Source: Levilactobacillus brevis
GTDB taxonomy: Bacteria; Bacillota; Bacilli; Lactobacillales; Lactobacillaceae
Direction: 5' to 3'
DNA: 64,000 bases
Assembly: GCA_003666485.1 (NCBI GenBank)
Contig: CP032931.1
Location: forward strand, 2,294,001 to 2,358,000
The translations under genes and the position numbers were made by a program. Position 1 is the first letter of the stretch. Every line of letters starts with the position of its first letter. Below the pieces are notes generated by a model, which was not told the DNA's origin, did not search any database, and was given only the letters and a program-made list of their open reading frames with translations. Of the stretch, positions 2,789-19,945 are shown in pieces.

Positions 2789-3121
2789 TTAGTTGGCGTT
2801 GGTCGTCAAAGAATTGATGAATTCTTCTACCTCTGCTTTAGTCTTACGATCTTTGTTCACTAACCGACCAAGTTCTTGGCCATCGGCATATGCAATGAAA
2901 CTAGGAATGCCGAAAACGTTCAGTTCAACCGCTAAATCGATGTTTTCATCCCGATCGACGGCAATAAACTTGTAGTCAGGATATTCTGCTTCGATTTCTG
3001 GCATTGCTGGCTTGATAAATGCGCAGTCTGAGCACCAGGTCGCAGAGAAGAATAGCATGGTCTTGCCTTCCTTGACAACGTCCTTTAGGTCAGCGGCAGA
3101 CATCTTGGGTAATTGTTCCAT
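2789..3121 (-). CDS. ytpP: Thioredoxin-like protein YtpP
   Basis: 110 residues, a single thioredoxin fold. The redox motif is C-S-D-C in SATWCSDCAFIKPAMPE (Cys about 30 and 33), not the CGPC of classical thioredoxin. The cis-Pro loop is NVFGIPSFIAY. No signal peptide, so cytoplasmic. Start ATG follows a GGAG-type site. It heads the ytpP-ytpR pair. It probably acts as a thiol-disulfide oxidoreductase; its partners are unknown. Family assignment is firm, the symbol rests on the conserved neighbourhood. Confidence 0.88.
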   Translation of the reverse strand: MEQLPKMSAADLKDVVKEGKTMLFFSATWCSDCAFIKPAMPEIEAEYPDYKFIAVDRDENIDLAVELNVFGIPSFIAYADGQELGRLVNKDRKTKAEVEEFINSLTTNAN

Positions 3122-3385
3122 GAATGAGCACTCCTTTTTCAGTTAGTTTTAAAAGTTAACATCAACCATTATAGCATGACTGGCTAAATATACACGGTTT
3201 TTGTTTGGAAAGCGGCTTGGCGGCCTTCACCAGCCCTTTTCTACGGGGCGGATGACCCAATTTTCTCGGCCACTCAGAAATTTTTAGCAAAATCTGCCTT
3301 TTTACGGGAACTTCCGCGCAATCATTGCTATACTAAGGGCAAGAAGTGATGGGAAGCATGCCCACAGAAATTAGGAGGCGGTAGT

Positions 3386-3709
3386 ATGGCTGCTAAAAAC
3401 GGACAATTATATCAACTAAGTCTCACCGGGGTTCTCGGTGGCTTAATGGGCGTTTTCATCACGCGCTTTTTCGGCGCTAACCGGCTCAATCCAGACGATA
3501 TCTTGGAACAGGTCAAACGCCAATTCCGGCAAGAATCACCGATCGAAGGTGCTTGGATCGAAAAGCACGCGGTGCCGTTTCAAAAGTTTGCGGTTAAGTC
3601 CCGGGTCTATTACGGTGGCATTACCCGCTACGAAGATGACCAGCTGGTACAGTACCAGTTCGTGGCCGATGCCGAAACCGGCAGTGTCCTCGATGTCCAA
3701 CGACTTTAA
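3386..3709 (+). CDS. Small PepSY-like protein with an N-terminal hydrophobic segment (YtzB-like)
   Basis: 107 residues behind a good AGGAGG site and a TATACT -10 box. The N-terminus (about residues 10-27, LSLTGVLGGLMGVFITRFFG) is a short glycine-rich hydrophobic segment that may anchor it. The rest resembles the small propeptide-like PepSY domain, with the pattern IEGAWIEKHAVPFQKFAV then YGGITRYEDDQLVQYQFVAD. In B. subtilis a comparable protein, YtzB, lies in the same ytp/yto neighbourhood, which is the main reason for the name. Function is unknown; modulation of a protease or of export would be a guess. Confidence 0.7.
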   Translation: MAAKNGQLYQLSLTGVLGGLMGVFITRFFGANRLNPDDILEQVKRQFRQESPIEGAWIEKHAVPFQKFAVKSRVYYGGITRYEDDQLVQYQFVADAETGSVLDVQRL

Positions 3710-3780
3710 CCCTGAATCAAAATAACCTGTAGCGTTGACTGAAATGTGGTCAGCGCTTTTTTGTTCCGACACAGTACGAG

Positions 3781-3896
3781 CTGGCCGCCTTACCGTTCGC
3801 CAAATTTGGACCGTGACACTGTGGGAAGGACCGGTCGAAGCCAAAAGTTAGTCTTCAACCTCGGCTGAGTCCAAATTTAGCTCACTCACGGCTACG
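3781..3896 (+). repeat. P element 1 (intergenic palindromic element)
   Basis: Left border CTGGCCGCCTTACCG. Outer arms GCCAAATTTGGAC (3799-3811) and GTCCAAATTTAGC (3869-3881) pair at 12 of 13 positions. An inner hairpin has GAAG/CTTC extended by GGT/ACC (3833-3860) and loop GCC at its 5' side. The right border CTCACGGCTACG resembles that of the other copies. Confidence 0.75.
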
Positions 3897-4013
3897 TGAC
3901 AGGTTGTCCACTAATGTGGATGAACGTTGCCATTTCAGCGATTTTCCTGTTAATCTTGTGGTTAACCACCGACGTAACCGGAGGCAGTCAGAGGTGTAGG
4001 TTGCTGTGACGAC

Positions 4014-4133
4014 GGCGTTCCCCATAGCTACCGGAATCTCTGACAGCCGCGGGTGATGGCGTGAACTAATTTCATGTTCACAATCCTTGTCAGCTGAGTA
4101 TTATCAAATATTTTTGTACTTGCAACCTTTAGT
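4014..4133 (+). repeat. R repeat, copy A (120 bp)
   Basis: Matches 10500-10619 at 118 of 120 positions without gaps. It contains the inverted pairs CTGACA/TGTCAG and GTGAAC/GTTCAC, which would fold into two coaxial stems, and a promoter-like TTCACA-16-TATTAT. No reading frame is conserved. Confidence 0.92.
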
Positions 4134-4199
4134 CACCTAAACAGTGAATAGCAAAAGAGACCGCGACATCTCGCCGCAGTCCCCTTCGTTTGACCCTAT

Positions 4200-4706
4200 T
4201 TAATCCGTTAACTTTTTCAAGCTCTGCGCCTGATTGTGTAAATCGGTCCGCACAATCAGGACGTCACAGATGGCGTTAGCGACCACATAACTGGCCGTAG
4301 AGCCCATTAGCATGCGTTCCACCACGTTGACCCCCGTGGCCCCGAGCATGATCAAGTCCGCCTGATACTCCTTGGGCAACGTCCGGGCCAAATCAACCTT
4401 GGCGTGGCCGTAGAAGACAGCGGTAACCACTTGTTCAACGCCTGCTTTTTGGGCGCGCTGACGATACTTATCGACTGTCGCTTCCAATTCTTGTCGCGAC
4501 TCGTCCATCACCTGCTGGTCAACGTAGCCGAAGCCGACTTGGGTATCACTGCCCAGACCCACGTAGTCACCGCCACTCATGATGGTGACGATGATCAGTT
4601 CTGCCTGATTCCGCACGGCCACCGCAATGGCTTTATCCAAAGCGCGCCGGGCCTGTCGTGACCCATCGACGCCGACTAAAATGTGTTTATAATCTGCGGC
4701 CATCAT
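4200..4706 (-). CDS. Universal stress protein (UspA family)
   Basis: 168 residues, one Usp domain. It begins MMAADYKHILVGVDGS, with the Asp and the DGS turn typical of the nucleotide site. Near the C-terminus GATGVNVVERMLMGST fits the ATP-binding signature G-x2-G-x9-G-(S/T), so an ATP-binding subclass is expected. I start at 4706 because the GGAG site lies five bases ahead of that ATG; an upstream in-frame ATG (4727) would include the ribosome site in the coding region. Located just after pepV on the same strand with a 22-bp gap, so cotranscription is possible. Role: stress and energy-starvation survival in known relatives. Confidence 0.93.
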   Translation of the reverse strand: MMAADYKHILVGVDGSRQARRALDKAIAVAVRNQAELIIVTIMSGGDYVGLGSDTQVGFGYVDQQVMDESRQELEATVDKYRQRAQKAGVEQVVTAVFYGHAKVDLARTLPKEYQADLIMLGATGVNVVERMLMGSTASYVVANAICDVLIVRTDLHNQAQSLKKLTD

Positions 4707-4728
4707 TCTCACTCCTTCGCCACACAAC

Positions 4729-6129
4729 CTACTTCGTTAATTCAAAGATGGCTTGACCGTAAATGGCCATGGCCTTTAACAAATCAGCTGCTGGTTGAAA
4801 TTCATCGGCTTGGTGCATGGTGTCAGCCGTGCCAGGGAACAACGCCCCAAAGGCCACCCCACGCTTCATCAGCCGACCGTAAGTCCCGCCACCCACAACT
4901 TCGGGTTGCGCGGTCGTGTCGCCGGTCTGTTGCCGGTAAACGTCCATCAACGTGGCCACGATTGGGTCATCCGGGTCAACGTAATGCGGTACCATTTCAC
5001 GGCCTTGCTTGATCGTCGCAGCCATGTTAGCCGTTGCCTTCGCTAAGCCAGCTTGGATGTCAGCGGCACCCGTCCCGGTTGGGTAACGGAAGTTGGTGTT
5101 GATCAACGCGCCGTTATCCGCCTTAAACGTTTGGATTCCCACGTTCATGGTCAGGTCACCCATCACTTTATCCGTGAAGGCAATGCCCAATTTGTGGGCC
5201 CGAGAATCGTCATGCAATTCGTTGGCCAACAAGCTCAAGAAGTCCGCTGCATCGCCGCCAAAGTCGTAGGCGTTCAGGAAGCTAGCCAAGTAGGTCCCGG
5301 CGTTGATACCGTTCTTGGGTTCCATCCCGTGAGCGGCCTTGCCAATGACTTCAAAATGAATACCCGTCGCATCAACCGTGGTTTCACCCGTAACTGGCAC
5401 CTGATCCAAGAATTGCTTGAAATCAGCTACCAACTGGTCGTTGTCACCGCCAGTTACCGTGGCTTCGGCGTCGCGGGGCACCATGTTCTCCCGGAGACCG
5501 GATTCGAAGTCGACCAGAGTCAACTCACCGCCATTACTCCCAGCAAAGTTGGTCGTAAAGGTCACGTTCCCCTTTTCACCGTTGATCAATGGGAATTCAG
5601 CGTCCGGTGAGAAGCCCAGCGTTGGTGCTGGTTCCAAGTCGAGGTAGTGGTTCATCCCCGTCCAGTCGCTTTCTTCGTCGGTCCCGATGATGAAACGAAT
5701 CTTGATCTTGGGTTGAATCCCTTGATCCTTCAACATCTTTAACCCGTAGTAGACAGCTAAGGCCGGCCCCTTATCGTCAGAGGTCCCCCGACCATACAGG
5801 TTGCCATCCTTTTCCGTCAACGTAAAGGGATCGGTGTGCCAGCCCTTACCTGCCGGCATCACGTCCGCGTGACCCAAGATAGCCAGGGTGTCGTCTCCCT
5901 CGCCGTATTCCACGTAACCTGCTAAATTATCTAAGTTTTTTGTTTTAAAACCGTCACGTTCCGCTAAGCCTAAAAATGCGATCAAAGCCTTAGCTGGACC
6001 TGGTCCCAATGGATACGTATCGGTGGCCTGTGAATCATCACGAGAACTGTCGATGCCGACCAAGGTGGTCAAGTCAGCGATGTAGTCCTCCCGGTATTGT
6101 TCAGATAGCTTTTGCCAATCAATTGCCAT
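4729..6129 (-). CDS. pepV: Dipeptidase PepV (M20 zinc metallopeptidase)
   Basis: 466 residues, the usual PepV length. Metal-site motifs are visible: HADVMPAG (His87, Asp89), GRGTSDDKGP (Asp118/119), GTDEESDW (Glu152/153, the catalytic Glu) and a C-terminal HQADEF His. The lid domain lies between them. PepV is a cytoplasmic di-zinc enzyme that cleaves a broad range of dipeptides with an N-terminal hydrophobic residue, the last step of peptide use in lactobacilli. The ATG follows a GGAGG site. A cre-like palindrome lies about 80 bp upstream, so CcpA control is possible. Confidence 0.96.
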   Translation of the reverse strand: MAIDWQKLSEQYREDYIADLTTLVGIDSSRDDSQATDTYPLGPGPAKALIAFLGLAERDGFKTKNLDNLAGYVEYGEGDDTLAILGHADVMPAGKGWHTDPFTLTEKDGNLYGRGTSDDKGPALAVYYGLKMLKDQGIQPKIKIRFIIGTDEESDWTGMNHYLDLEPAPTLGFSPDAEFPLINGEKGNVTFTTNFAGSNGGELTLVDFESGLRENMVPRDAEATVTGGDNDQLVADFKQFLDQVPVTGETTVDATGIHFEVIGKAAHGMEPKNGINAGTYLASFLNAYDFGGDAADFLSLLANELHDDSRAHKLGIAFTDKVMGDLTMNVGIQTFKADNGALINTNFRYPTGTGAADIQAGLAKATANMAATIKQGREMVPHYVDPDDPIVATLMDVYRQQTGDTTAQPEVVGGGTYGRLMKRGVAFGALFPGTADTMHQADEFQPAADLLKAMAIYGQAIFELTK

Positions 6130-6210
6130 GATTGGACCTCCTTCATTTTATTCGGACCTAACGTCCGGTCTATGGTCTTGCGTTTGAAAACGCCCGCGCT
6201 TTTCGCTTCG

Positions 6211-6226
6211 TCAAAAACGTTTTCAA
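6211..6226. promoter_or_regulatory. Possible cre (CcpA) operator upstream of pepV
   Basis: tcaaaaacgttttcaa is close to the catabolite-responsive element consensus (TGWAAnCGnTnWCA) on the reverse strand. It sits 82 bp before the pepV ATG and about 135 bp before the divergent nnrD ATG. Confidence 0.45.
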
Positions 6227-6362
6227 CCTAACCCTAGCATAATTCTAGCATACCGCCCGCCAAATGTAAGCCGATTTCATCGCCAAAAATCACAATTCAC
6301 CCTGGGCCCCGTCATTTCGGGCCACGTGCTATACTAAAAGAGAAACTGAGGAGGCTTTTTTC

Positions 6363-7196
6363 ATGGAAACCTTAACGGATAAAATTCTCACGAGCACGAT
6401 TCGTCAGCGCCCAGCCAACAGTTATAAGGGCACTTACGGCCGGGTCACCCTGATTGGTGGCAACCGCAACTTTGGCGGCGCCATTCTGATGGCCAGTGCC
6501 GCCGCCGTGTACGCTGGGGCCGGGTTGGTCACCACCATCACCGACGCCAGTAACCAAGGTAGCCTGCACGCCCGTCTACCCGAAGCCATGTTTGCCGATA
6601 TCGCCGACGTCGCCCAGACCCAGTCGCTGGTTCAAGGCACCGACGTCGTTGTCATCGGCCCCGGCCTCGGTACGGATGAAGCGGCTTTGCAGGTACTGAC
6701 CAACGTCTTACACACGGTAGCGCCGACCCAAACACTGGTGATCGACGGGTCCGCCATTACCTTGGTCGCCGAACACCACCTGACCTTGCCGAGCGCGCAC
6801 CTCGTCTTAACGCCTCATCAAATGGAATGGCAACGCTTGAGCGGCATCAAGATAGCTGACCAAACGCCCGCAGCCAACCGCCAAGCCGTGGACCAGTTAC
6901 ACGCGACCGTCGTGGTCAAATCACACCGCACTGAAATCTACACAGCAGATCAAACCTACGTCAATCCGCTGGGCACGCCCGCCCAAGCAACTGGCGGCAT
7001 GGGCGACACCTTGGCGGGGATGGTCGGCGGATTTGCCGCGCAGTTCACGCCGTTGACTCAGGCCATCTGTGCCGCTGTCTATACCCACAGCGCTGTCGCG
7101 GAAGAATTAGCACGGACCCAATACGTGGTCTTGCCGAGTCAAATTGCTGCCGCCTTGCCACAATTCATGAAGGCCCACGAAGGCGCGCAACACTAG
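6363..7196 (+). CDS. nnrD: ADP-dependent NAD(P)H-hydrate dehydratase
   Basis: 277 residues of the ribokinase-like YjeF C-terminal family, alone, without the N-terminal epimerase domain. It carries the N-terminal GRVTLIGGNRNFGGAILMAS, the VVIGPGLGTD loop and the catalytic/nucleotide motif GTPAQATGGMGDTLAGMVGG. It repairs damaged hydrated NAD(P)H using ADP in this family. It is monocistronic, with a TATACT -10 box at 6330-6335 and GAGGAGG before the ATG, and it diverges from pepV. The epimerase partner (nnrE) is not in the window. Confidence 0.94.
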   Translation: METLTDKILTSTIRQRPANSYKGTYGRVTLIGGNRNFGGAILMASAAAVYAGAGLVTTITDASNQGSLHARLPEAMFADIADVAQTQSLVQGTDVVVIGPGLGTDEAALQVLTNVLHTVAPTQTLVIDGSAITLVAEHHLTLPSAHLVLTPHQMEWQRLSGIKIADQTPAANRQAVDQLHATVVVKSHRTEIYTADQTYVNPLGTPAQATGGMGDTLAGMVGGFAAQFTPLTQAICAAVYTHSAVAEELARTQYVVLPSQIAAALPQFMKAHEGAQH

Positions 7197-7240
7197 CTAA
7201 TTACCAGTGAAATTAGTCTTCGAATGTAAGGTGGTTCGTA

Positions 7241-7390
7241 CTGGCCGCCTACCGTGTTTCTGATAGACGTCAACTTGCCGAAGCCAGCTGTGTCGACGGT
7301 GTAGAGTTAGACAACTTGAGAGACTGGTGGGTTTTGTCAGACTTCTAAGCAAACCGGAAGACCGCTCCAACACGGTAATTCTACGTTCAG
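7241..7390 (+). repeat. P element 5 (degenerate copy)
   Basis: Starts with CTGGCCGCCTACCG. The outer arms TACCGTGTT (7250-7258) and AACACGGTA (7369-7377) are perfect complements, different in sequence from every other copy. Next to the right arm is GACCGCTCC, the reverse complement of the GGAGCGGTC core seen in P3 and P4. The inner part is eroded. Confidence 0.6.
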
Positions 7391-7413
7391 CGCTTTGGCC
7401 TACAATCTTTAAA

Positions 7414-7470
7414 CAAAAAAATCCCTTGATTAACAGCAGATACACCATCTGCCGCTCATCAAGGGATTTT
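7414..7470. terminator. Bidirectional terminator between nnrD and the RsuA-like gene
   Basis: AATCCCTTGAT and ATCAAGGGATT pair, with an inner GCAGAT/ATCTGC stem. There is an A run on the left and a T run on the right, so it can serve both convergent genes. Confidence 0.85.
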
Positions 7471-7471
7471 G

Positions 7472-8161
7472 TCATGTCATTTTTAGTGATGTATCCAGTG
7501 GGCCATTCAAGGCGTCGATTTCCTGGGCAAATAGCCCGCGGTAAGTGCCGACAGCCAGATCGACCGGCAAGGCTAACGGGCCCAACTGCGTGCGGACCAC
7601 CGGCTCGTTTGCGTTGGCCAACGCGCTCAGGGCGCTAACACCAGCCGGGACATCGGTCGTTGTTAACGACACCGTGGTGGTCTGGCGGACCTTATCCACG
7701 TGACTGGTCACGTCTTCAAAGGCGCCGCTGGCCGGCAATGTCGGCACTGTCGTCTGGGCCAACACGATTTGCAAGGTGCTGCGCCAGTTTTGTTGCGCCA
7801 CGTCCGTTAAGAAGTGTTCGTCGTCACTGGCTAAGACCAAGCCCACCGTTTCTTTGGGCAAGTCTGCCAACGCCTTTAGCGACCGTTGCTGGTCCAAGGG
7901 ATTCAACAGGCTGCCTAGGCTCCGTTGCCCAGTCGGTTCCAAGTTCAAGACGAAGCCAACTGGCTTATTGAAGACCAAATACTGCGGCTGACGGCCCGTG
8001 ACGGTCACCCCGTCCACGCGGACCTGCTGGCCACTGGTGACATCGGTTCGCGGTGAATCGACGACCAGATCATCCACGGTGACGCGACCCTGCCGCAATA
8101 ACCGGAAGATTTGTCCCGGTGTGCCTTGGCGATGGGCCGTTAAATAGCGTTCAATGTTCAT
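7472..8161 (-). CDS. RsuA-like pseudouridine synthase family protein lacking the catalytic Asp
   Basis: 229 residues. An N-terminal S4-like RNA-binding domain (about 1-60: IERYLTAHRQ, GQIFRLLRQGRVTVDD) is followed by an RsuA/RluB/E/F catalytic fold (YLVFNKPVGFVLN). In active enzymes the key motif reads G-R-L-D-x-x-T-x-G-L; here the aligned stretch is A-D-L-P-K-E-T-V-G-L, so Pro replaces the catalytic Asp (codon CCC). I infer it does not isomerise uridine but may still bind RNA. It begins 12 bp after the flippase stop, the same pairing as ytgP-ytzG in Bacillus. ATG at 8161 chosen over a GTG at 8164 for its GGAGG spacing of eight bases. Confidence 0.85.
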   Translation of the reverse strand: MNIERYLTAHRQGTPGQIFRLLRQGRVTVDDLVVDSPRTDVTSGQQVRVDGVTVTGRQPQYLVFNKPVGFVLNLEPTGQRSLGSLLNPLDQQRSLKALADLPKETVGLVLASDDEHFLTDVAQQNWRSTLQIVLAQTTVPTLPASGAFEDVTSHVDKVRQTTTVSLTTTDVPAGVSALSALANANEPVVRTQLGPLALPVDLAVGTYRGLFAQEIDALNGPLDTSLKMT

Positions 8162-8173
8162 CACAGCTGCCTC

Positions 8174-9814
8174 CTAACGAATGTGTAACCGCCGCCGAAT
8201 ACCAGCGACCCGTGGCCCCAAGATGGCATCGGCTAACCGGGTCCGTAAGACCACGTAGACGTAGAAGTACCCGGCCACGATGACCGCCACCATCACGATT
8301 AAGAAATTAATCATCCGGCCTTGACTTCCACTAAAGGCGCCTAGCCAGGCCACCAAGCGGGCCAATGCATAGGTTCCAATAGAGACCAACAAGATGCCGT
8401 TGGTCTTCTTCGCGATGTGGGCAAAATTGATGCCAAATTGTTGGTCCAGTGAATGGATAATCAAATAACAGGTTACGGTGAAGCCGATACCCGTCGCAAT
8501 CAGCGGTCCAAAGGCCCCTAAGAAGTATACCAGTGGCCACTGAACAATGAATTTCACCACAGTCCCCACCAAGAAGTAACGGACTGCCCGCTTATTTTGC
8601 GAGATCCCCTGCATCAACGCTGAGACGACCGTGTACAGGCCGAGCAGAATCGACAGGTACGAGGAGAAGGCCAGGATAGACGCCGCTAAGGCCGCGTGTG
8701 ACCGGCCATAAAAGACCAGGTTCAACGGACTGGCAATGGCCGCCATCCCCAGCGCACTGGGAATCATGACGAATTCAAACATCAAGAAGGCGTTGGACAA
8801 TTGCGCGGAAATTTCTTTTTTATTGCCCCGGGTGTAGGACTCCGACAGTAACGGTACCACCGTGACCGCCAGCGCCGACGCCAGAGAAATCGTGATCATA
8901 ATTAATTTGTTGGCATTGACCCCGAATAACGCGAACAAGTCGTTCAAGTGCGCATCGGTATAGGAGCCCGCCATGTGCATGATGGGCGCAAACGTATATT
9001 GGTCGATCAATTGAAAGATCGTGATGCCGGCCCCTAATACGATGAACGGGACGGCTTGGGCAATGATTTCCCTGTACAACTGGTTGGCCGGTACCACCAG
9101 CTCGTTGTTACTATTGGCGACTAAGCCACGGAAATAATGCCGCCGACGCCAGTAGTACACACCCAAGATCAACAGGCCACCTAAAGCCCCGATGGCCGCC
9201 GCAAACGTGGATTGGGAAACCGCCGTGACCCAGTTGCCATTTAAGACCCGCATGATCACGAAGGCCGTCAGTAACATGTACGCGACTCGGACTAATTGTT
9301 CCACAAACTGGGAAATTGCGGACGGTGCCATTTGCTGGAAGCCTTGGAAATACCCCCGTGTCAGACTCATCGTGGGAATAATCAAGATGGCCCAAGCCAG
9401 TGAGTGTAAGACCGGAATCAGGTGTTGGTCGCCCCCGGTGAAGAGCGGTGCGCCAAAGTACATTAACAGGGCAATCGAGATCCCGGTGACCACCGCAATC
9501 TCCAGTCCCCGTTTATACAGCCGCACACTAATGCCGTATTCGTTCAAGGCATTGTAGTGCGCCACTTGTTTGGCAATCGCGGAAGGCACCCCCGCAATCG
9601 CCGCAATCAGGAAGAAACTGTAGATGTTATACCCTTTTCCGTACAGCGCGTTACCTTGCAGGTAAAAGGCGCCGAACCAAATATTCCAGGGAATAATGTA
9701 AACTGCACCGAGAATCCGGGAAAAAATACTCCCGGCCGTCATCCACGCTGAGCCGGCAACCATTTGGTCTTGCGCGCTACCTTGGTTACCAGTTTGATCT
9801 GACCTTGCCGCCAT
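8174..9814 (-). CDS. MATE-like/MurJ-type polysaccharide (lipid) flippase, YtgP family
   Basis: 546 residues with about 14 hydrophobic helices and typical family patterns: AGSAWMTAGSIFSRILGAVYI near the start, KQVAHYNALNEYG, and LASALAVTVVPLLSESY in the second half. Related proteins (YtgP/MurJ, SpoVB) flip lipid-linked cell-wall or polysaccharide precursors across the membrane; YtgP is the Bacillus MurJ-like member. The track of hydrophobicity starts after a charged cytoplasmic tail. I use the ATG at 9814 with AGGGTG upstream; a TTG at 9832 would put that site inside the gene. Probably cotranscribed with the downstream RsuA-like gene. Confidence 0.88.
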   Translation of the reverse strand: MAARSDQTGNQGSAQDQMVAGSAWMTAGSIFSRILGAVYIIPWNIWFGAFYLQGNALYGKGYNIYSFFLIAAIAGVPSAIAKQVAHYNALNEYGISVRLYKRGLEIAVVTGISIALLMYFGAPLFTGGDQHLIPVLHSLAWAILIIPTMSLTRGYFQGFQQMAPSAISQFVEQLVRVAYMLLTAFVIMRVLNGNWVTAVSQSTFAAAIGALGGLLILGVYYWRRRHYFRGLVANSNNELVVPANQLYREIIAQAVPFIVLGAGITIFQLIDQYTFAPIMHMAGSYTDAHLNDLFALFGVNANKLIMITISLASALAVTVVPLLSESYTRGNKKEISAQLSNAFLMFEFVMIPSALGMAAIASPLNLVFYGRSHAALAASILAFSSYLSILLGLYTVVSALMQGISQNKRAVRYFLVGTVVKFIVQWPLVYFLGAFGPLIATGIGFTVTCYLIIHSLDQQFGINFAHIAKKTNGILLVSIGTYALARLVAWLGAFSGSQGRMINFLIVMVAVIVAGYFYVYVVLRTRLADAILGPRVAGIRRRLHIR

Positions 9815-10037
9815 TTGACACCCTACTTTCAATTTCTAAATTCAACGAAGCCGTGCTTGTTATTACAAGCTAATCAAACAAACATTATAACATAGGATTT
9901 CCGTTTCATTTCTCAGGTTTCGGTAAAGATTTGGCCTTTTCTGCAGAAATTACAGCGTCCAGCTTAACGGAATTTGTGAAACAGTGGTATGCTGGAGGTA
10001 GTCGAGAAGCAACAATTATTCAAGGAGGAATGCCAAT

Positions 10038-10358
10038 ATGACGCAAGCAACAGCTGGTTCCACCGCAGCACCAAAGATGCAGATGTCACCAGAACGGGCA
10101 AAGCAAGTCGTAACCATGACCAAGAGTATTCGGGCGCATTTTCCAGAGTTAGCCGAGATTCCCAACGCCCAACTCATCTACTCAACGTGGCGGAGCTTCA
10201 AGCGAATCGATCAAACGAATGATAGTGATTATCAAACGATGGCTGGCGTCTTCTTCCACGAATTCGACCGCCATCTGCTGAATTACCAACTCTCGAAATC
10301 AGGCCAAGAAGACGCTTTCCGTCAACGCTTCTTTGCCATTTTAACTGAAATTCTGTAA
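10038..10358 (+). CDS. Hypothetical small protein, conserved-looking
   Basis: 106 residues behind a strong AAGGAGG site, ATG at 10038. I do not recognise the family. The sequence is mostly helical and soluble, with a Thr/Ala-rich start, a central segment SIRAHFPELAEIPNAQLIYS and an aromatic C-terminal part (GVFFHEFDRHLLNYQLS). There is no signal peptide and no metal or nucleotide motif. It stands alone, divergent from the flippase. Codon use resembles its neighbours, so it looks like a resident gene. Confidence 0.75.
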   Translation: MTQATAGSTAAPKMQMSPERAKQVVTMTKSIRAHFPELAEIPNAQLIYSTWRSFKRIDQTNDSDYQTMAGVFFHEFDRHLLNYQLSKSGQEDAFRQRFFAILTEIL

Positions 10359-10400
10359 TTTTCAATTGACGATACTTGTAGAGTCAGTGACCGCAAATGG

Positions 10401-10514
10401 CCGCTGGCTTTTTGCTATCTTGGAGAGTGGAACGTGTTTGGAGATTGACGGGGTTCGTCAAGCTTCAAACCGAGTCGGCGGACCGCTCCATAGGCCGCCG
10501 GCGTTCCCCATAGC
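10401..10514 (-). repeat. P element 4 (weak copy, overlaps R copy B)
   Basis: GCTAT...GGAAC (10414-10418, 10429-10433) pairs with GTTCC...ATAGC (10503-10507, 10510-10514). The minus strand shows GGAGCGGTC and then a perfect TTGACG/CGTCAA hairpin with loop AACCC, comparable to the core of P5. The typical left border is not intact. Confidence 0.5.
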
Positions 10515-10619
10515 TACCGGAATCTCTGACAGCCGCAGGTGATGGCATGAACTAATTTCATGTTCACAATCCTTGTCAGCTGAGTATTATCAAATATTTT
10601 TGTACTTGCAACCTTTAGT
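10500..10619 (+). repeat. R repeat, copy B (120 bp)
   Basis: Ungapped match to 4014-4133 with only two G/A differences. The boundaries are sharp: the sequences diverge at once beyond both ends. Confidence 0.92.
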
Positions 10620-10937
10620 TTGTTTATCAGTTTTAAGCGAAACCAGCTGCCTTTTGGCCCAGGTTTCAACACCAGATATTCGGAGACACAAGGGCCTGAG
10701 ACTTTTATCCCAAGTCGTCAAAACCGTCACGTTTTCCCCAACGTCTTGGTCGAAAGGCCACTGCACCCCATCAACGTCCATTCCAGTTATCACCCGCTAA
10801 GTTCATGGTCCAACCGCCTTTTCCGAAATGAATGCGTTATACTTGAGGTATCAACCAATTTGGGTGATGGGCGGTTTACAGCTTGGGAGAATCCCGCGGT
10901 GATCGCCCCAGAATCTGAGATAAGTGAGGCGATTCGT

Positions 10938-11705
10938 TTGCGTTATTTGGCATTGTTAGGCAGTCACGAGCGCCATGGAATTACGGCCGGCTACCTGCAG
11001 GCGGTGATCGATGCCCTTCCGACGTCGGCTGAGGTCGAGACCGTTTTCCTGCGTGACTACGACATTTACCCGGACACCAAGGAGCAGACCTGTCCGGCAT
11101 TAGATGAGATTGAAGCCAAGATGGCGGCCAGCGATTTTTGGATCATCTGCGTGCCCACCTACTGGGGTGGCATGGCCGGCGTCATGAAGCAGTTCTTTGA
11201 CTGCATGCGGTTCCGGTTGGTACGGATGAACTCGGTGGCCGACACGTTGCCCGGCAAATACAAGGATAAACACTACTTAAGCATGACCAGTTGTTTTATT
11301 AGCTCGACCGAAAACTTCTTTACCGGCATCACGGATCAGACCTTCGTCACGATCGACCGTATTCTCACGGGCGCTGGTCTGATCAAGGTCGGTGAATTTG
11401 TCGGGACTGGTACCTGGGGTGGCGACCACGCACCGCGGCCAGAAAAGCTCGCCGAATGTCAGCGCTGGGGCCAAAAAATCGCTGACCGGCCACGAAAGGA
11501 TGATAACACCTTGAAACGTTACATACTCCTCTTCTTTATGATTGCAGTGATGGCTCTGATCACCATGGGCCTGCAAGCCTGGTGGTTCGGCGTCTTTGCG
11601 GCGGGGAAATTCTGGCTGACGTACGCCACGTTTGTGGTCATCTTCTACGTCTTGCTGGCTAGTATCCTGCACTTCTTCACGTTCGTCCGGCATCGGCGGC
11701 GGTAG
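10938..11705 (+). CDS. Flavodoxin-like / NADPH-dependent FMN reductase-type protein with C-terminal membrane helices
   Basis: 255 residues from a TTG start at 10938, chosen because AGTGAGG lies eight bases upstream and the flavodoxin-like fold begins at once (RYLALLGSHERHGITAGYLQ). The first ~190 residues have the FMN-reductase layout: nucleotide loop, then DFWIICVPTYWGGMAGVMKQF typical of the second FMN loop, and GTGTWGGDHAPRP. Residues about 195-250 form two hydrophobic helices ending in a basic tail (FVRHRRR). So it is probably a membrane-anchored flavoprotein facing the cytoplasm. Substrate unknown. The start is uncertain, since the frame is open to 10620. Confidence 0.75.
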   Translation: MRYLALLGSHERHGITAGYLQAVIDALPTSAEVETVFLRDYDIYPDTKEQTCPALDEIEAKMAASDFWIICVPTYWGGMAGVMKQFFDCMRFRLVRMNSVADTLPGKYKDKHYLSMTSCFISSTENFFTGITDQTFVTIDRILTGAGLIKVGEFVGTGTWGGDHAPRPEKLAECQRWGQKIADRPRKDDNTLKRYILLFFMIAVMALITMGLQAWWFGVFAAGKFWLTYATFVVIFYVLLASILHFFTFVRHRRR

Positions 11706-11769
11706 TAGTTCTCAACTAAACACAGCTGCATGCAAATCTATTATGTCGCAATTCATTATCATCCCCAAT

Positions 11770-11816
11770 CAAAAAGTGCCAGTCATCTTCCGTTAGGAAA
11801 GTGACTGACACTTTTT
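11770..11816. terminator. Terminator between the flavodoxin-like gene and leuS
   Basis: AAAAAGTGCCAGTCA pairs with TGACTGACACTTTTT with one mismatch; A and T runs on either side make it bidirectional for the two convergent genes. Confidence 0.85.
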
Positions 11817-11828
11817 GACTGATGCAAA

Positions 11829-14258
11829 TTAGTTGGCAACAATATTGACCAGCTTGCCAGGAACCACGATCACCTTACGAATCGTCTTGCCATCCGTATG
11901 GGTCTTGACCGTGTCATCGGCTAACGCTTGCGCCTCGATGTCATCCTTGGCAGCGTCCTTGGCCACTTTCAAGTGTGCCCGGACCTTACCGTTGACTTGG
12001 ACAACCATTTCGACCACGTCTTCGACCAATTGCTTGGCGTCGTACGTTGGCCACTTGGCGTACGCAATCGTGTCGTCATGCCCCATCAAGGACCAGAGTT
12101 CTTCCGCGATATGTGGCACGATTGGTGAGATCAACTTGACGAAGCCTTCCATGTAAATCAACGGGAGACTGTCCACCTTGTAAGCTTCGTTGACGAAGAC
12201 CATCAGTTGTGAAATGGCCACGTTGAACCGCATAGCTTCTAAGTCTTCGCTGACCGTCTTGACCGTCTGGTTGTAGATCTTATCCAATTGACCATCGTTG
12301 ATCATCGTGACCCGGTCACGCAGGTGGTTGTTGTCATCGATCATCAGACGCCAAACGCGGTCGAGCCAACGTTTGGACCCATTGATACCTTCCGTACTCC
12401 ATGGCTTGGACGCTTCCAGCGGCCCCATGAACATTTCGTACAGACGCAGGGTATCGGCCCCGAACTTCTCAACGATTTCATCCGGGTTGATGACGTTGCC
12501 CTTAGACTTCGACATCTTTTCGTGGTTAGTCCCCAGGATCATCCCTTGGTTGACCAACTTCTGGAAAGGTTCCTTGGTTGGGACCACGCCGAGATCGTAT
12601 AAGAACTTGTGCCAGAACCGTGCGTACAACAGGTGCAAGACGGCGTGTTCCGCCCCACCGATGTACAAGTCAACGGGCATCCAATACTTCAGCTTGTCGG
12701 GATCGGCAATGGCTTGGTCATTGTGTGGATCGACGTAGCGCAGGAAGTACCAAGAACTCCCAGCCCATTGTGGCATGGTGTTGGTTTCGCGCTTCCCTTT
12801 ACGGCCGTTTTCATCCACGACATTGACCCAGTCGTCTAGGTTCGCCAGTGGACTCTCACCGGTCCCAGAAGGTTCGAGTTGCTTAGCTGCTGGTAGCTTC
12901 AGTGGCAATTCGTCTTCTGGGACCAGCGTCGTTTCGCCGTCTTCCCAATGGATAACGGGAATCGGTTCGCCCCAGTACCGTTGCCGGGAGAAAATCCAGT
13001 CCCGCAAGCGGAAGTTGACCTTCTTGTGGCCGGCGTTGTGGGCTTCCAACCAATCGATAGCCGCAGCAATCGCGTCTTTTTTGTTCATGCCGTTCAAGAA
13101 GTCGGAATTGATGTGTTCGCCGTCGCCGGTGTAGGCTGCTTGTTGCACATCCGTATCATCATCGCCCGCAATAACTTGGACGATTGGCAGGTTGAATTTC
13201 TGCGCAAACTCGTTGTCGCGGTCATCGTGCGCGGGCACAGCCATGATGGCCCCAGTCCCGTAAGATGACAGCACGTAGTCACCGATCCAGATAGGCAGCT
13301 TCTTGCCGCTCAATGGGTTGATGCCGTATGCTCCGGTGAAGACCCCGGTCTTGTCCTTGTTCAAATCAGTCCGTTCCAAATCAGACTTGCTGTCGATGGC
13401 CTTTTGGTAAGCCTTGACCTCGTCCACGTGTTCCGGCGTCGTGATTTGATCGACCAGTGGATGTTCAGGTGCTAAGACCATGTAGGTCGCCCCAAACAGC
13501 GTGTCTGGTCGGGTCGTGTAGACTTCGACCTTGGTGTCTGCTTGCCCATCGACTGGGAAAAAGACGCTGGCCCCTTCAGAACGGCCGATCCAGTTGCGTT
13601 GCATTTCCTTGATGCTATCTGGCCAGTCCAAATCGTCCAGGTCATCTAACAAGCGGTCGGCGTACGCAGTGATCTTCAAGACCCACTGCCGCATTGGCAC
13701 GCGGTAAACGGGGTAACCGCCCCGTTCCGTCTTGCCATCGACGACTTCTTCGTTGGCCACAACAGTCCCGCCCATGAAGTCGGGTGCCCAGTTGACCATG
13801 ATCTTGTCTTCGTAAGCCAGACCTTTTTTGTACATTTGTTCAAAGATCCATTGGGTCCACTTGTAGAAGGATTCGTCGGTCGTGTTGACCTCGCGACTCC
13901 AGTCATAAGAAAAGCCCAGCGACCGGATCTGGCGTTTAAAGTTTTTAATGTTATGTGCGGTGAAGTCCTTCGGGTTGTGCCCGGTCTTCAAGGCGTATTG
14001 TTCAGCGGGCAAGCCAAACGCGTCCCAGCCCATTGGGTGTAAGACGTTAAAGCCCTGCATCCGCTTCAAGCGGGCCATGATATCCGTTGCCGTGTAGCCT
14101 TCTGGATGTCCCACGTGCAGCCCTTGACCTGATGGGTATGGGAACATATCCATCACGTAATACTTCGGTTTTGTCTGGTTGTCAGTAGTCTTAAACGTTT
14201 CGTTGACCCGCCAGTAGTGTTGCCACTTGCGTTCAATAATTTGGTGTTCGTATGCCAA
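11829..14258 (-). CDS. leuS: Leucyl-tRNA synthetase
   Basis: 809 residues, normal bacterial LeuS size. The class I signatures are present: [15 protein letters not shown] (HIGH-type, HVGH) and [19 protein letters not shown] (KMSKS). The CP1 editing domain lies between, with the conserved threonine-rich [19 protein letters not shown] and [15 protein letters not shown]. The start is the TTG at 14258 preceded by AAAGGGAG; LeuS proteins normally begin close to this (MAY.H). A longer ATG-started reading is possible but would swallow the ribosome site. Expression is governed by a leader T-box (14290-14545). Confidence 0.97.
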
Positions 14259-14289
14259 ATTCTTCGCTCCCTTTCTCATTGGTCCGTTG

Positions 14290-14545
14290 TCCACAAAAAA
14301 AGCCCCCAGAAGCCCAAAAATCAGCTTCTGTAGGGCGTGTCAGCGCGGTACCACCTACATTTCCCCGGTCTTATCCCGAGGCTCATTACGGCTGATAACG
14401 TCGCCAAACGCCCACTTTGCAGCGGAGAAGACTCGGAGACAAGTTCGTTTCACTGAGCAACGGATTCACAGCGACCATCCGCTTGCTGAATACCCCGTCA
14501 AACTACTACTTCTCGTCAATGTCTTGGTTTAATCAGATTGTTTTC
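14290..14545 (-). promoter_or_regulatory. T-box riboswitch upstream of leuS
   Basis: The minus strand carries the T-box core AGGTGGTACCGCG followed by a terminator hairpin (GCCCTACAGAAGC pairing with GCTTCTGGGGGC, 14302-14336) and seven Ts. About 200 bases of stem I-III sequence precede it. A CTC triplet in the stem I region (AATCCGTTGCTCAGTG on the minus strand) is a candidate leucine specifier, not proven. Uncharged tRNA-Leu binding would favour the antiterminator and leuS transcription. Confidence 0.93.
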
Positions 14546-14574
14546 ATCTTAGCAAACCCCCTAGGGAAAAGCAA
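14546..14574 (-). promoter_or_regulatory. Promoter of the leuS T-box transcript
   Basis: Minus strand TTGCTT (14569-14574), 17-bp spacer, TAAGAT (14546-14551), directly ahead of the T-box leader. Confidence 0.6.
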
Positions 14575-14625
14575 GGGGCCGACACTGGTTTTTGGAAAAA
14601 TCTGGTTAGCAGCAATGTTGTGGAA

Positions 14626-14808
14626 CTGGCCGCCTGCCGTTACGCGAAATCTAGGTTGGAACGCTGGGGGAGGACGTTCTGAGCCTGAAACCCGGTCTCA
14701 GAACTTGCTTTGAGCCGAAGCCCCCGTCTCAAAGTCACCAATTTACCAGCCAAGAACGCTGCTAAATTCCCCGGCTGAACCTAGATTTCGCTTCACTCTC
14801 GGCTAAGG
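14626..14808 (+). repeat. P element 2
   Basis: Left border CTGGCCGCCTGCCG. Outer arms GCGAAATCTAGGTT (14644-14657) and AACCTAGATTTCGC (14778-14791) are perfectly complementary. Two tandem inner hairpins follow one plan: GTTCTGAG/CTCAGAAC (14676-14704) and CTTTGAG/CTCAAAG (14708-14734), each with GCC after the left stem and GT before the right stem. Right border CTCTCGGCTAAGG. Confidence 0.85.
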
Positions 14809-14947
14809 GGACGCTTACTCACAACGCTTTGTTTGGACCAACCAGCGCAGTCCGTATCGTTGTCATAACAGTGATCCACGTTGGCAAAGCAGCGTATCAG
14901 GCCGTGTCGTCCGTTATGCTTAAACGAACTATCATTGACAAGCACCA

Positions 14948-15139
14948 CCGTAGCCGAGAGGTCGCTAGAGATGAGTTCAGCCGTGGGAGTTTCCTTAGCG
15001 GTGGTCTTTGCCGGTTAGGAAACTGGCATCTTTGAGACGCGTTCTTTCGGCTCAAAGCGAGGTGTCGAGACCGCTCCTTGGCTCGGCCCGTCCGCCCACC
15101 GCGTTCCGACTCATCTCTAGCGACCGGTAAGGCGGCCAG
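14948..15139 (-). repeat. P element 3 (inverted orientation)
   Basis: Read on the minus strand: border CTGGCCGCCTTACCG, then a perfect 17-bp outer stem GGTCGCTAGAGATGAGT (complements at 15109-15125 and 14960-14976). Inner hairpins CGAG/CTCG (15066-15085) and CTTTGAG/CTCAAAG (15030-15057) follow, then the border CTCTCGGCTACGG. The outer arms have no similarity to those of P1 or P2, while borders and core do. Confidence 0.85.
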
Positions 15140-15283
15140 CCCACACCAACCACCCTGGTTAACGGTAGCCACTACTCTAGCCATTTCCTAAGTAAGCTTA
15201 ACATCTCCCCCGTTTACCGTTGTTACGCCAACCCTGTGCTATACTGAAATTATAAAAATCATGATATAGGAGGTCACCATTTG

Positions 15284-15919
15284 ATGACCATTTCAAAGAC
15301 ACGCTGGTACTTTACTTGGGCCGCGGGCATTTTCTTTCTGATTGACTTGCTTGGCGTTGCCACTCAACAGGCTTGGATACACGCCTTGGACCGCCTCATC
15401 ATCGGGTGGGTCCGGCAACCGCTTCCCCACGGTCTGACGCAAGTTATTATCGGCGTCACGCATTCCGGCGACCCCAAACCCATGACCTGGATCACGCTGT
15501 TGCTGGTGGCCGTGCTGGTCATTACCCGCCGTTACCGAGGTGGGCTGTTTCTAGCCTTCAACGTGTTGGTCTGGGCCGGCATTGGCAATAGCCTGATCAA
15601 ACACCTGGTTCAACGGCCGCGGCCGACCGTCGACCGCCTCGTGGCTGCCAGTTCCTACAGTTTTCCCAGTGGCCACTCTATCACGGCCATGCTGTTGTGG
15701 GGATCCCTCATCATCTTGTTGGGGTGGTCCTTGCGGCAACGACCGTGGCGCCGTCGGCTAGTCGTCATTGTTTTGAGCTTATGGATCGTTTGCATCGGCC
15801 TGTCACGTATCTACGTTGGCGTGCATTACCCCACCGACGTGCTGGGCGGCTGGTCACTGGGCTTTTGCCTGTTAACTTTGAGCCAATGGTTCTTGACTCG
15901 TTACGGAGATGTTTTATAA
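15284..15919 (+). CDS. PAP2 superfamily membrane phosphatase
   Basis: 211 residues, about six membrane helices. All three acid-phosphatase motifs are present: KHLVQRPRP, SYSFPSGHS and SRIYVGVHYPTDVLGG, where the last two His residues are the catalytic nucleophile and acid. Likely substrates are undecaprenyl diphosphate or phosphatidylglycerol phosphate on the outer face; sequence alone does not decide. An AGGAGG site serves either a TTG (15281) or this ATG. It directly abuts the next gene (stop and start are adjacent), so they form one operon. Confidence 0.92.
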   Translation: MTISKTRWYFTWAAGIFFLIDLLGVATQQAWIHALDRLIIGWVRQPLPHGLTQVIIGVTHSGDPKPMTWITLLLVAVLVITRRYRGGLFLAFNVLVWAGIGNSLIKHLVQRPRPTVDRLVAASSYSFPSGHSITAMLLWGSLIILLGWSLRQRPWRRRLVVIVLSLWIVCIGLSRIYVGVHYPTDVLGGWSLGFCLLTLSQWFLTRYGDVL

Positions 15920-16486
15920 ATGAATTTACCCAACGCCTTAACTTATAGCCACACGTTGCTCAACGAAATCGTCGGCCCTGGCGCAACCGTCGTCGATGCC
16001 ACGGTCGGCCAAGGCCATGACACGATTTTTCTTGCCAATCTAGTCGGCAAGACTGGCCGGGTCATCGGCTTTGATATTCAGCAAGCTGCCTTAGATGAGA
16101 CGCAACAGCAACTCCAACTGACCGGTCTGGGCCAGCAAGTCGAGCTGCACGCGACCGGTCACGAGCACGTGGCCGATTACCTAACGGCCGACGAACCGGT
16201 GACCGCAGCCATCTTCAACCTGGGCTACCTGCCTGGTGGCGACAAGTCCGTCATCACACGGCCCGATACCACGCTGGCGGCGGTCAAGGCCTTACTGCCA
16301 CACCTGCCGCGCGGTGGCCGCATCATCCTGGTCGTCTACGCTGGTCATCCCGGCGGCGCCACAGAACGCAACGCCGTCGTCGACTTTTGCCAAGCCTTGC
16401 CACAAAAGACTTACCAGGTCCTGCGTTATGGCTTCATCAATCAAGTACACACACCACCGTTCTTGCTGGCGATTGAACGACGGTAG
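15920..16486 (+). CDS. mnmM: Class I SAM-dependent methyltransferase, MnmM (YtqB) family
   Basis: 188 residues, a single Rossmann methyltransferase domain. SAM motif I is VVDATVGQGHDTIFLA (Asp26 to Gly32), motif II GRVIGFDIQ, and the substrate loop AIFNLGYLPGGDK. Bacillus YtqB (MnmM) methylates nm5U34 to mnm5U34 in tRNA wobble positions; the sequence fits this family in length and motifs. The ATG begins one base after the PAP2 stop, so translation is probably coupled. Symbol based on family recognition. Confidence 0.88.
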   Translation: MNLPNALTYSHTLLNEIVGPGATVVDATVGQGHDTIFLANLVGKTGRVIGFDIQQAALDETQQQLQLTGLGQQVELHATGHEHVADYLTADEPVTAAIFNLGYLPGGDKSVITRPDTTLAAVKALLPHLPRGGRIILVVYAGHPGGATERNAVVDFCQALPQKTYQVLRYGFINQVHTPPFLLAIERR

Positions 16487-16540
16487 AAAAAGCGTGGTGC
16501 TACAGGCGAAACCGATTGTCTACACTCAACAAAACTAGAA

Positions 16541-16598
16541 TCGGCACCAAGCCATCCCCAAAGTTTCCGGATAGCTTGGCGCCGATTTTTTTGTCTAA
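16541..16598. terminator. Terminator after mnmM
   Basis: AATCGGCACCAAGC pairs with GCTTGGCGCCGATT (one mismatch) around a 25-base loop, followed by seven Ts on the plus strand. Confidence 0.85.
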
Positions 16599-16672
16599 TC
16601 GTTTAAAAAAATCTAAAGATACTGGCAACCCCGTTACAAAGCACCCCACGATTTCGTTAGTAAGAGTAGAAC

Positions 16673-17998
16673 CTACTTTTTCTGCAGCGACTTGCGTTTG
16701 GGGCTGACCCAGGTGCCCGACCCGAAGCCCAGGATGGTTTTCAGCGCCGGGATGAAGGTCATCACCACCGTGATGGGGTTGACCATCCAGTAAAACAGCA
16801 TGTAAAGCGGCGCAAACAGCATGTATTTCAACTTGATGCCATGGTGGTCTAGTAGTAACGCCGCCAGCAGCTGCATGAAACCGGCAAACAGCTCGAAGGT
16901 CACGAAGATGAAGGAGATCACGATGCCGTGAATGACCCGTTCGTAATCCCCGGTCACCAGGAAGACTCCCATGGTTGTGAAAAAGGCGATTGAGGTCAGC
17001 GTGAAGAAAAACGACCAGATGATCGACAGCGTGGAATCCACGAACATGGAAATCTGGTAGCGGTGAGCGATGGGATGCAGTAAAAACTTTTTAATATTGG
17101 TCAACCAGACCTCGGTCCCGCCCTGTGCCCAACGTTTCCGTTGCTTGTAGAGGTCATGCAGTGTCTCGGGGACGTTCATGTGAAAAATAACGTTCGGGGC
17201 AAATCGTGGGACGGCCCCAATCATTTGGTGGTCCCAGGCGATACTGATGTCCTCGGTGGCCCGGTTTTGCCGAAAGCCGCCCACGTCGATCAAGAAGTCC
17301 TTTTTGTACAGCGTGTTCGCCCCACTGTATGCATACATGGAGTCGTTGATGGCGGTCTGACTGCGCTTGATGACCCCCACGATGCTGGTAAACTCGACCG
17401 TTTGCGATTTACCCAACAAGCTGGACCGGTTTTGCACGTCCATGTTGGCCGTCACGGCCGAGGTGTTCATATCTCGGTCGCGCATGAAGAAATTCATATA
17501 CTTCATCAAAGCGTCCGGTTCGGGAATCGTGTCGGCGTCGTTACTGAGGATGTAGTCGCCCTTGGCAAAGTACATGCCGATGTTAAACGCATGGGCCTTC
17601 CCCTTGTTTTTCAGGATCTCCACCGTGCGCAACCGCGGGTATTTCTGCTGTAACCGCGCGATGATGGCGCCCGTGTCATCGCTGGACCCATCATTCATCA
17701 CCAACACTTCAAAATTGCTGTAATTCAGCTGGTCGAATAGGTAGGTGATGGTCTCCTCGATCATGACCTCCTCGTTGTGGGCGGGAATCATAATGGTAAT
17801 CATCGGCTGCTGATCAACCGGAATCTCGTGCCAGTCGGTATCCCGCTTATTGGTCTTCAAGAACCGATATGACAATGCGCCAGCAAACCAGAAGAACGAC
17901 CCGACGACCGGATACAGGCACAAAATTAGCAGGAAAATATTGCCCAGCGTCTGACCCCAGGTGGCTTTTAAAATGCTATCAATAAAAACGTTGACCAT
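16673..17998 (-). CDS. Processive family 2 glycosyltransferase (PgaC/HasA-like membrane synthase)
   Basis: 441 residues: an N-terminal membrane helix (about 15-40), a cytoplasmic GT-A domain (about 60-320) and three to four C-terminal helices. GT2 motifs are VLVMNDGSSDDT, the DAD in ILSNDADTIPEPDA, the acceptor TED in RATEDISIAWDH and the Q-x-x-R-W motif of processive enzymes (QRKRWAQGG). These are the marks of enzymes that polymerise and export beta-linked polysaccharides such as poly-N-acetylglucosamine or hyaluronan; the sugar cannot be told here. It is the last gene of a three-gene operon with the EAL protein and a small membrane protein. Confidence 0.93.
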   Translation of the reverse strand: MVNVFIDSILKATWGQTLGNIFLLILCLYPVVGSFFWFAGALSYRFLKTNKRDTDWHEIPVDQQPMITIMIPAHNEEVMIEETITYLFDQLNYSNFEVLVMNDGSSDDTGAIIARLQQKYPRLRTVEILKNKGKAHAFNIGMYFAKGDYILSNDADTIPEPDALMKYMNFFMRDRDMNTSAVTANMDVQNRSSLLGKSQTVEFTSIVGVIKRSQTAINDSMYAYSGANTLYKKDFLIDVGGFRQNRATEDISIAWDHQMIGAVPRFAPNVIFHMNVPETLHDLYKQRKRWAQGGTEVWLTNIKKFLLHPIAHRYQISMFVDSTLSIIWSFFFTLTSIAFFTTMGVFLVTGDYERVIHGIVISFIFVTFELFAGFMQLLAALLLDHHGIKLKYMLFAPLYMLFYWMVNPITVVMTFIPALKTILGFGSGTWVSPKRKSLQKK

Positions 17999-18007
17999 GG
18001 TCGCCCC

Positions 18008-19320: not shown

Positions 19321-19489
19321 GCTTTAGTCCTCACTCCATCCGAATTTATTTGAATCATTGACTACCACCAATTCTAATATGTGGCGGGGGGATTTCAAGC
19401 GATTTACATCTGGGTTGTCACAAGCTGAGAAAATTGGGTAAGGATACGTTTGCAGGAATTCAACTACTACTATCGCTGTAAACGCTCAC

Positions 19490-19520
19490 CAGTAAACCTA
19501 GGAGCCCCCTAGGTTTACTG
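19490..19520. repeat. Perfect 13-bp inverted repeat with 5-base loop
   Basis: CAGTAAACCTAGG (19490-19502) and CCTAGGTTTACTG (19508-19520) are exact complements. No T run follows on either strand, so it is not a typical terminator. It lies about 170 bp ahead of the EAL operon start. Confidence 0.85.
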
Positions 19521-19807
19521 AAATCTCATTGGACCGGGGTTCAGTATAAATTGTCCACTAAGCAATTTAGGGTTTAAAACGTCATGTTGTTTATTAAAAA
19601 ATCCCAAGAATTTCGTTGATAGTCTATTCTGTTCTACAAATGCCTGTTTAATCGATTCTTGCGTATAGCAACTATCGGCATTTTAGATAATCATCGGCAT
19701 TTGCTAGTGACAAGTCGTGATTTGCTTAGGTCCGCACATGTAGCTTAAGCTGCCTAAACCACCAGCAATACCGTCCTCGCGAAGAAAGTTGAAAGTGCCC
19801 CCATCCC

Positions 19808-19890
19808 TGGCTGACGTAGGCTCCCGATTTCACCAATTTTAGTTGACAGAATACTGTCGTCCCGGGAGTCAACACGTTAAGTCTACTTTC
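19808..19890 (-). repeat. C element 1 (structured 83-bp intergenic repeat)
   Basis: On the minus strand it begins GAAAGTAGACTTA and ends GGAGCCTACGTCAGCCA. It has nested stems CTCCCG/CGGGAG and GACAG/CTGTC. About 77% identical to C element 2 (42293-42374). It starts 17 bases past the mecA terminator. Confidence 0.75.
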
Positions 19891-19906
19891 AATTTTTAGA
19901 GTCGAT

Positions 19907-19945
19907 AACAAAAAAGCCGAACACCCAATGGCATTCGACTTAAAG
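19907..19945 (-). terminator. Terminator after mecA
   Basis: AAGTCGAA/TTCGGCTT stem with a run of six Ts on the minus strand, 20 bases past the mecA stop. Confidence 0.8.

Follow-up and report, generated by a model that had tools for sequence, protein, structure and literature searches.

Introduction

REP/BIME sequences are palindromic intergenic repeats with units of 20–40 bp that are moved by Y1 enzymes without target duplications. The BOX and RUP repeats of Streptococcus pneumoniae are high-copy sequences resembling miniature inverted-repeat transposable elements (MITEs), with strong folds, and the ends of RUP resemble those of IS630-Spn1 (PMC3049150; this and the other sources cited here were available in part, and what is said of them applies to those parts). 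The bcr1–bcr18 repeats of the Bacillus cereus group have many intergenic copies; some are MITE-like, some have conserved folds and about half are transcribed (PMC3446304). QMITE2 of Coxiella burnetii is a MITE with 7–9 bp duplications, a stable predicted fold and a core of 113–145 bp (PMC10969869). Insertion sequences (ISs) of the ISPepr1 subgroup of the IS4 family measure 1500–1600 bp, have CT ends (YT-AA-YTT---A) and make 7–8 bp duplications in AT-rich targets (PMC2266710). Here we analyze a palindromic repeat of Levilactobacillus brevis, module P, which lies in several intact and decayed copies in a stretch of 64,000 nucleotides (contig CP032931.1, positions 2,294,001 to 2,358,000; hereafter the window). 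Module P keeps a multi-branched fold by compensatory change, and it is very likely a building block of a MITE, here a non-autonomous DNA transposon whose ends resemble those of IS4/ISPepr1 elements.

Like REP/BIME sequences, the lactobacillus element is palindromic and intergenic; unlike them, it has target duplications. It resembles BOX and RUP in its high copy number and strong folds, and RUP also in having IS-like ends. It differs from both, as far as descriptions can be compared, in its IS4-type ends, its 7–9 bp duplications, its two facing multi-branched modules and a fold that covaries across genera (PMC3049150). Neither "compensatory" nor "covar" appears in the available text of that paper. 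From the bcr repeats it is set apart, again by description, by its host group and by an IS partner with the same ends (PMC3446304). QMITE2 is similar in its MITE nature, duplication length and stable predicted fold, but its core is of a different size, and the available parts of its account describe no paired covarying modules (PMC10969869). With an ISPepr1-type IS, the miniature element has just the ends in common. Our literature searches, in which subscription papers were thinly covered, turned up no description of this element.

Results

Module P Is Abundant and Recurs across Genera

A preliminary description of the window, made from its letters alone, reported five copies of a palindrome and proposed a covariance-model search of the genome and of other Lactobacillaceae. 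The pattern proved to be genuine and much more extensive than first described. Module P is about 190 bp long, and at least 150 full copies were found by model search of the whole genome that contains the window. This number is a lower bound, because 150 of 1496 candidates were scored and all 150 matched (weakest E 2.4e-35). At up to one mismatch, the genome contains 160 occurrences of the border motif CTGGCCGCCTNCCG, against 2 of the reversed pattern. At E up to 0.001, module P was matched in 40 of 98 genomes, including 33 of 35 from the same genus; G021 and G031, also of this genus, gave no match at that threshold. A family-wide draw, with 8 candidates scored per genome, placed the module in 74 of 301 genomes and 11 of 40 genera (E up to 1e-6).

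Scanning named genomes for the hairpin signature returned at least 105 stretches. The 80 listed come mostly from Levilactobacillus, with several from Lactiplantibacillus, two labelled Lactobacillus and four from unrelated bacteria, the last probably chance matches. Plasmid and phage collections held no match to the one P copy used as query. The view that no named family has this plan agrees with Rfam 15, in which no family exceeded its gathering score for the modules in the window; a permissive search of six loci (E up to 5) yielded four weak matches, all outside the modules. Among the 150 model hits listed, 3 fall in the first 250 kb (C1:1-250000, next to dnaA), compared with 8–21 in the other 250-kb bins.

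The Fold of Module P Is Kept by Compensatory Change

The fold of P combines an outermost pairing of the borders with a long arm, a short stem and three hairpins; GAGCC-loop-GTCTC is common to two of the hairpins. The two intact copies in the window, at 14626 and 14950, fold better than shuffled sequences (z −5.0 and −4.2), and another genomic copy reaches z −9.2. Two-sided changes maintain this multi-branched fold; in all three alignments they exceeded all 500 shuffles and every control in which the pairing partner was slid. Among 30 copies (alignment A1) there were 155 two-sided cells, against 40 when shuffled and 9–26 when slid. The corresponding values were 631, 140 and 21–88 for 127 copies from the same genome (A2), and 511, 141 and 60–106 for 46 cross-species matches; these two alignments were fitted to the model and are hence biased in its favour. 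A1 was made with plain MAFFT, but part of the structure scored on it came from A1 itself. It favours complete copies: six truncated copies were left out, an end rule dropped 11 matches (including the window copies at 3781 and 7241), and the 31 matches kept were reduced by L024:1097.

The shared borders, GAGCC...GTCTC hairpins and paired changes of the preliminary description are real, as is its conclusion that the fold and not the sequence is conserved. Its statement that the outer arms are unrelated between copies does not hold in general. The CAAATATG arm is common to 70 of the 127 own-genome copies, and 32 of the 127 belong to no named arm type; between species the arms differ widely, as judged by eye. 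Unpaired stretches (e.g., GGAACGC) and a bulged base are conserved too. Hairpin loops vary more, with a mean entropy of 0.83–1.04 bits in A2 against 0.48 in stems and 0.55 in other unpaired columns.

Paired changes would also accumulate without selection on the fold if template switching copied one arm onto the other at once. Such a process would suit the 554 two-sided cells seen against few wobble intermediates (37 G-U, 114 A-C), as well as some very close pairs of copies that differ by several two-sided changes, up to 6, and the near equality of the two kinds of change in the 7 closest pairs (0.035 two-sided vs 0.041 one-sided per pair). The nearest neighbours speak against it: in 25 such pairs the 59 one-sided changes exceed the 32 two-sided ones, and 13 of these pairs lack two-sided changes altogether. 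As the distance between copies rises, two-sided differences per base pair grow from 0.02–0.04 to 0.17, whereas one-sided differences level off, going from 0.04 to just 0.10. The two-sided changes of five close pairs are spread over two or three helices rather than one, and GGAACGC and the bulged base, which are unpaired, are also kept. Selection within the mobile lineage combined with drift of single copies fits the distance pattern better than one-step arm copying, and we regard the latter as improbable.

The Element Has Terminal Repeats and Duplicates Its Target

The complete element is about 540–640 bp long, carries no gene and consists of two inverted modules inside 14-bp terminal inverted repeats. 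Its order is terminal repeat CTRAAGGTTGMAAG, a spacer of about 77 bp, P, a middle part, an inverted second module (P-prime), a spacer and the terminal repeat. Neighbouring module pairs within 800 bp (n = 23) were arranged +/− in 18 cases, +/+ in 4, −/− in 1 and −/+ in none; the 18 face each other with their borders outward. The terminal repeat motif has 139, 104 and 48 matches in genomes G030, G033 and G000, against 8, 3 and 1 for a reversed control.

The element inserts with 7–9 bp AT-rich target duplications. Twenty elements were fetched by the presence of both ends (lengths 281–724 bp): 13 are flanked by exact duplications of 7–9 bp, 5 by duplications with one mismatch and 2 by none. When the flanks of different elements were compared as a control, 0 of 380 combinations were exact and 7 of 380 had one mismatch. 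The exact duplications are 83% A+T. An insertion of about 390 bp in G030 has GTTAGTAA on either side, and the orthologous empty site in G033 has GTTAGTAA once. Around leuS, modules are present or absent between species in slots whose flanking proteins are 87–99% identical. In G359, a genome of another genus, four of eight loci have both ends, two have one end and two have none (within 2 mismatches); three of the four two-ended loci show exact duplications, and the fourth has TTGGTTTAA on both sides, shifted by one base as judged by eye. The element thus has the features of a MITE: it is short, lacks a coding gene, has terminal inverted repeats, duplicates its target and shares its ends with an autonomous IS.

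Two other accounts of the element can be weighed against these data. The preliminary description had proposed a mobile palindrome handled as single-stranded DNA. Mobility stands, but the REP/BIME-like, single-stranded part does not, since terminal inverted repeats with 7–9 bp duplications are the signature of a DDE transposase. Movement of a REP/BIME-like or IS200/IS605-like element by a Y1 transposase would match the hairpins with a single bulged base, and the genome has 5 Y1 transposase matches. It is contradicted by the 14-bp terminal repeats and the duplications. Replichore orientation bias is absent (30+/41− vs 43+/36−, p = 0.14, with the terminus assumed to be mid-chromosome), the same ends flank a DDE transposase (see below), and the Y1 genes have no link to the element. 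We consider this origin extremely improbable.

GOLLD and ROOL are large structured RNAs, and the repeats could in the same manner be a free-standing RNA gene family in which the terminal repeats form the closing helix. A complete copy in G033 (609 nt), which runs from CTGAAGGTTGAAAG to its complement, does fold strongly (z −12 from 20 shuffles) and is closed by its ends, and the covariation would be expected. Against this, the target duplications and the empty site reveal insertion, the two strands of the full-length set fold almost alike (−184.6 and −182.8 kcal/mol), and Rfam had no match to the modules in the window at curated scores. A free-standing RNA gene is accordingly a highly improbable explanation.

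Copies and Remnants in the Window

Model R1, built from 30 genomic copies, was run over window positions 3000–21000 with E up to 10. The features of the element in the window are as follows.

3781..3895, plus strand: P module with an internal deletion (R1 66 bits, E 2e-15)
4010..4132, plus strand: right part of the 3781 element; 90% repeat (D1) of 10496-10642
4119-4132, minus strand: terminal inverted repeat CTAAAGGTTGCAAG, exact match to the repeat motif
7241..7390, plus strand: probable deletion derivative, P left border fused to part of P-prime (alignment with the full G033 element and an 87-bp G030 slot)
10401..10618, plus strand: element remnant with right end (repeat D1)
10605-10618, minus strand: terminal inverted repeat CTAAAGGTTGCAAG, exact motif match
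14626..14806, plus strand: P module, left member of a facing pair, arm sub-family GAAATC (R1 149.7 bits, E 4e-36; fold z −5.0)
14950..15139, minus strand: P module, right member of the facing pair, arm sub-family CTAGA (R1 197.8 bits, E 5e-48; fold z −4.2)
19799..19899, plus strand: right-end remnant outside the region first described (blastn with the full element: 19805-19892, 77%)
19886-19899, minus strand: decayed terminal repeat CTAAAAATTGAAAG (motif with 2 mismatches; 1.5 such matches expected by chance in the window)

Three of the five copies first described (14950, 14626 and 3781) match the model. The other two, 7241-7390 and 10401-10514, gave no R1 match as P modules in this region and are remnants; the sole further R1 match there covers 27 bases at 10475-10501 (E 0.31). 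The facing pair at 14626 and 14950 spans 514 bp from outer border to outer border. The copy at 3781..3895 seems to be part of an element remnant that apparently extends to the right terminal repeat at 4132, with no left end seen, and 10401-10514 looks like a remnant adjoining a right end. The folds of copies 7241, 10401 and 3781 are weak or unremarkable (z −1.4, −2.8 and 0.1).

The edges of 7241-7390 pair perfectly over 9 bp (TACCGTGTT / AACACGGTA) despite loss of the original arms, which may be chance or a newly formed palindrome. Positions 14290-14520, upstream of leuS, resemble a T-box leader, yet Rfam gave no T-box match in the window. In the L200 slot (between the orthologs of window 15920-16486 and 16673-17998), G033 has about 1.5 kb of extra sequence with apparent short open frames, as judged by eye. 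Positions 25786-32344 carry rRNA genes together with 18 clustered tRNA genes.

An IS4-Family Insertion Sequence Has the Same Ends

G030 contains a truncated fragment of an IS4-type transposase, whose end lies about 60 bp away from the terminal repeat of the element. At E up to 0.001, relatives, a few of them distant, occur in 13 of 35 genomes, with 28 loci returned; in the 16 loci examined, an exact repeat lies beside the transposase in 7 and a one-mismatch repeat in 3 more. Locus L410, in the sister-species genome G018, holds an apparently intact 1559-bp IS that contains an open frame, is bounded on each side by a perfect copy of the repeat and is flanked by the 8-bp duplication CTGATTAA. Its transposase scores above cut-off against NF049925 (IS4 family, NCBIfam; E 5.7e-141) and PF01609, and the Y(2)R(3)E(6)K spacing is present by eye. 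In size, CT ends, duplication length and AT-rich targets it resembles the available description of ISPepr1; seven of eight end positions fit, and position 7 differs, being G where the published consensus has Y (PMC2266710). The module model found no match inside the L410 IS; simple deletion within that IS would therefore not produce the miniature element.

The genome of the window is itself rich in ISs, with 26 PF01609, 20 PF00872 and 5 Y1 transposase matches. Its PF01609 transposases were considered as partners: 7 loci were fetched from the 26 matches, and the ends did not occur in any of them at up to 2 mismatches. One PF01609 fragment in G030 does have the end motif at that level, and it led to the L410 IS. 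For IS256-type transposases, three fetched loci had a hit with 2 mismatches and none had a better one. At L352, positions 1211-2030, a second PF01609-type IS apparently lies in or beside an IS4 transposase remnant.

Genomic Setting and Strand

All copies had been described as intergenic, and this extends to the genome: 125 of 127 own-genome copies fall outside the genes that a simple script predicts. The 127 copies lie between tandem genes in 74 cases, convergent genes in 34 and divergent genes in 12; 5 have no call and 2 overlap genes. The intergenic position, together with the strong, conserved and covarying fold, would be natural for cis-acting regulatory RNAs or terminators retained at each locus to control neighbouring genes. 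Yet orientation relative to flanking tandem genes is even (37 same, 37 opposite), slots filled in one species are empty or different in the next, and terminator-like sites in two scanned elements are not above chance. Retention for local regulation is therefore very improbable.

On the plus strand of P, pairs predicted on both strands comprise 37 G-U and 114 A-C cells. The A-C excess implies that the opposite, outward-read strand tolerates wobble. RNase P, taken as a control with 28 distinct sequences, gave 13 G-U and 1 A-C on its known strand. The two facing sub-families show the same direction of wobble (28 vs 93 and 4 vs 31 cells), the second not significantly by sites. The bias is suggestive of folding by the outward-read strand.

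Discussion

We conclude that the repeats are very likely modules of a MITE with IS4/ISPepr1-like ends and a covarying fold. That the element is a transposed one is highly likely, and an IS4-family partner is likely. A transposase of the ISPepr1 type would move the element in trans; such mobilization is probable, given that the genus contains an apparently intact IS whose ends and duplication length are the same. The fold would be upkept mainly along lineages that keep moving, while individual copies drift.

Several observations weigh against this interpretation or against parts of it. Support for movement is indirect and comes from sequence comparison. Most modules in the window's genome have no recognizable ends (left 2 of 68, right 4 of 68 within 2 mismatches), just 6 of 40 cross-species loci have a terminal repeat at up to one mismatch, and none of 12 loci in G022 and G194 has ends within 2 mismatches. 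The transposase relatives in the window's genome are just 29% identical and a close one was not found there, an absence that may explain the scarcity of recognizable ends. P-prime is weakly recognized in young elements, in 3 of 15 at E < 0.001, no more strongly than antisense self-matches. A few very close pairs of copies hold up to 6 two-sided changes alongside 1 loop difference. Across species, the wobble bias does not reach significance (13 vs 15 sites; 12 vs 24 cells, 5 vs 9 sites; the cross-species alignment A3 has 46 rows including 3 antisense self-matches, removed for the 12 vs 24 cells and 5 vs 9 sites and kept for the 13 vs 15 sites), and it is absent from the full-length set (21 vs 19 cells). 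The promoter-like site in both scanned elements points inward, not outward.

Of the readings first offered for the palindrome, a structured RNA is possible. Each module would then act as a folded single strand, probably an outward-read RNA, that helps the element persist or move; we put this forward tentatively, at somewhat short of an even chance. More speculative, and in our view rather doubtful, is that the element is a vehicle for a structured RNA pair: a gene-less transposon whose selected cargo would be two facing covarying domains, read outward from the middle and kept across genera, with ends borrowed from an IS4 element that is unrelated in other respects.

Bacterial MITEs are usually viewed as short elements whose fold is dictated by their end repeats. 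In the present element, compensatory change preserves a specific multi-helix fold in internal modules that were not found in the partner IS, which raises the testable question of what use a nucleic-acid fold is to a transposon. With at least 150 modules in one genome and with different insertions in closely related species, the element is also relevant to comparing and typing strains of these lactobacilli.

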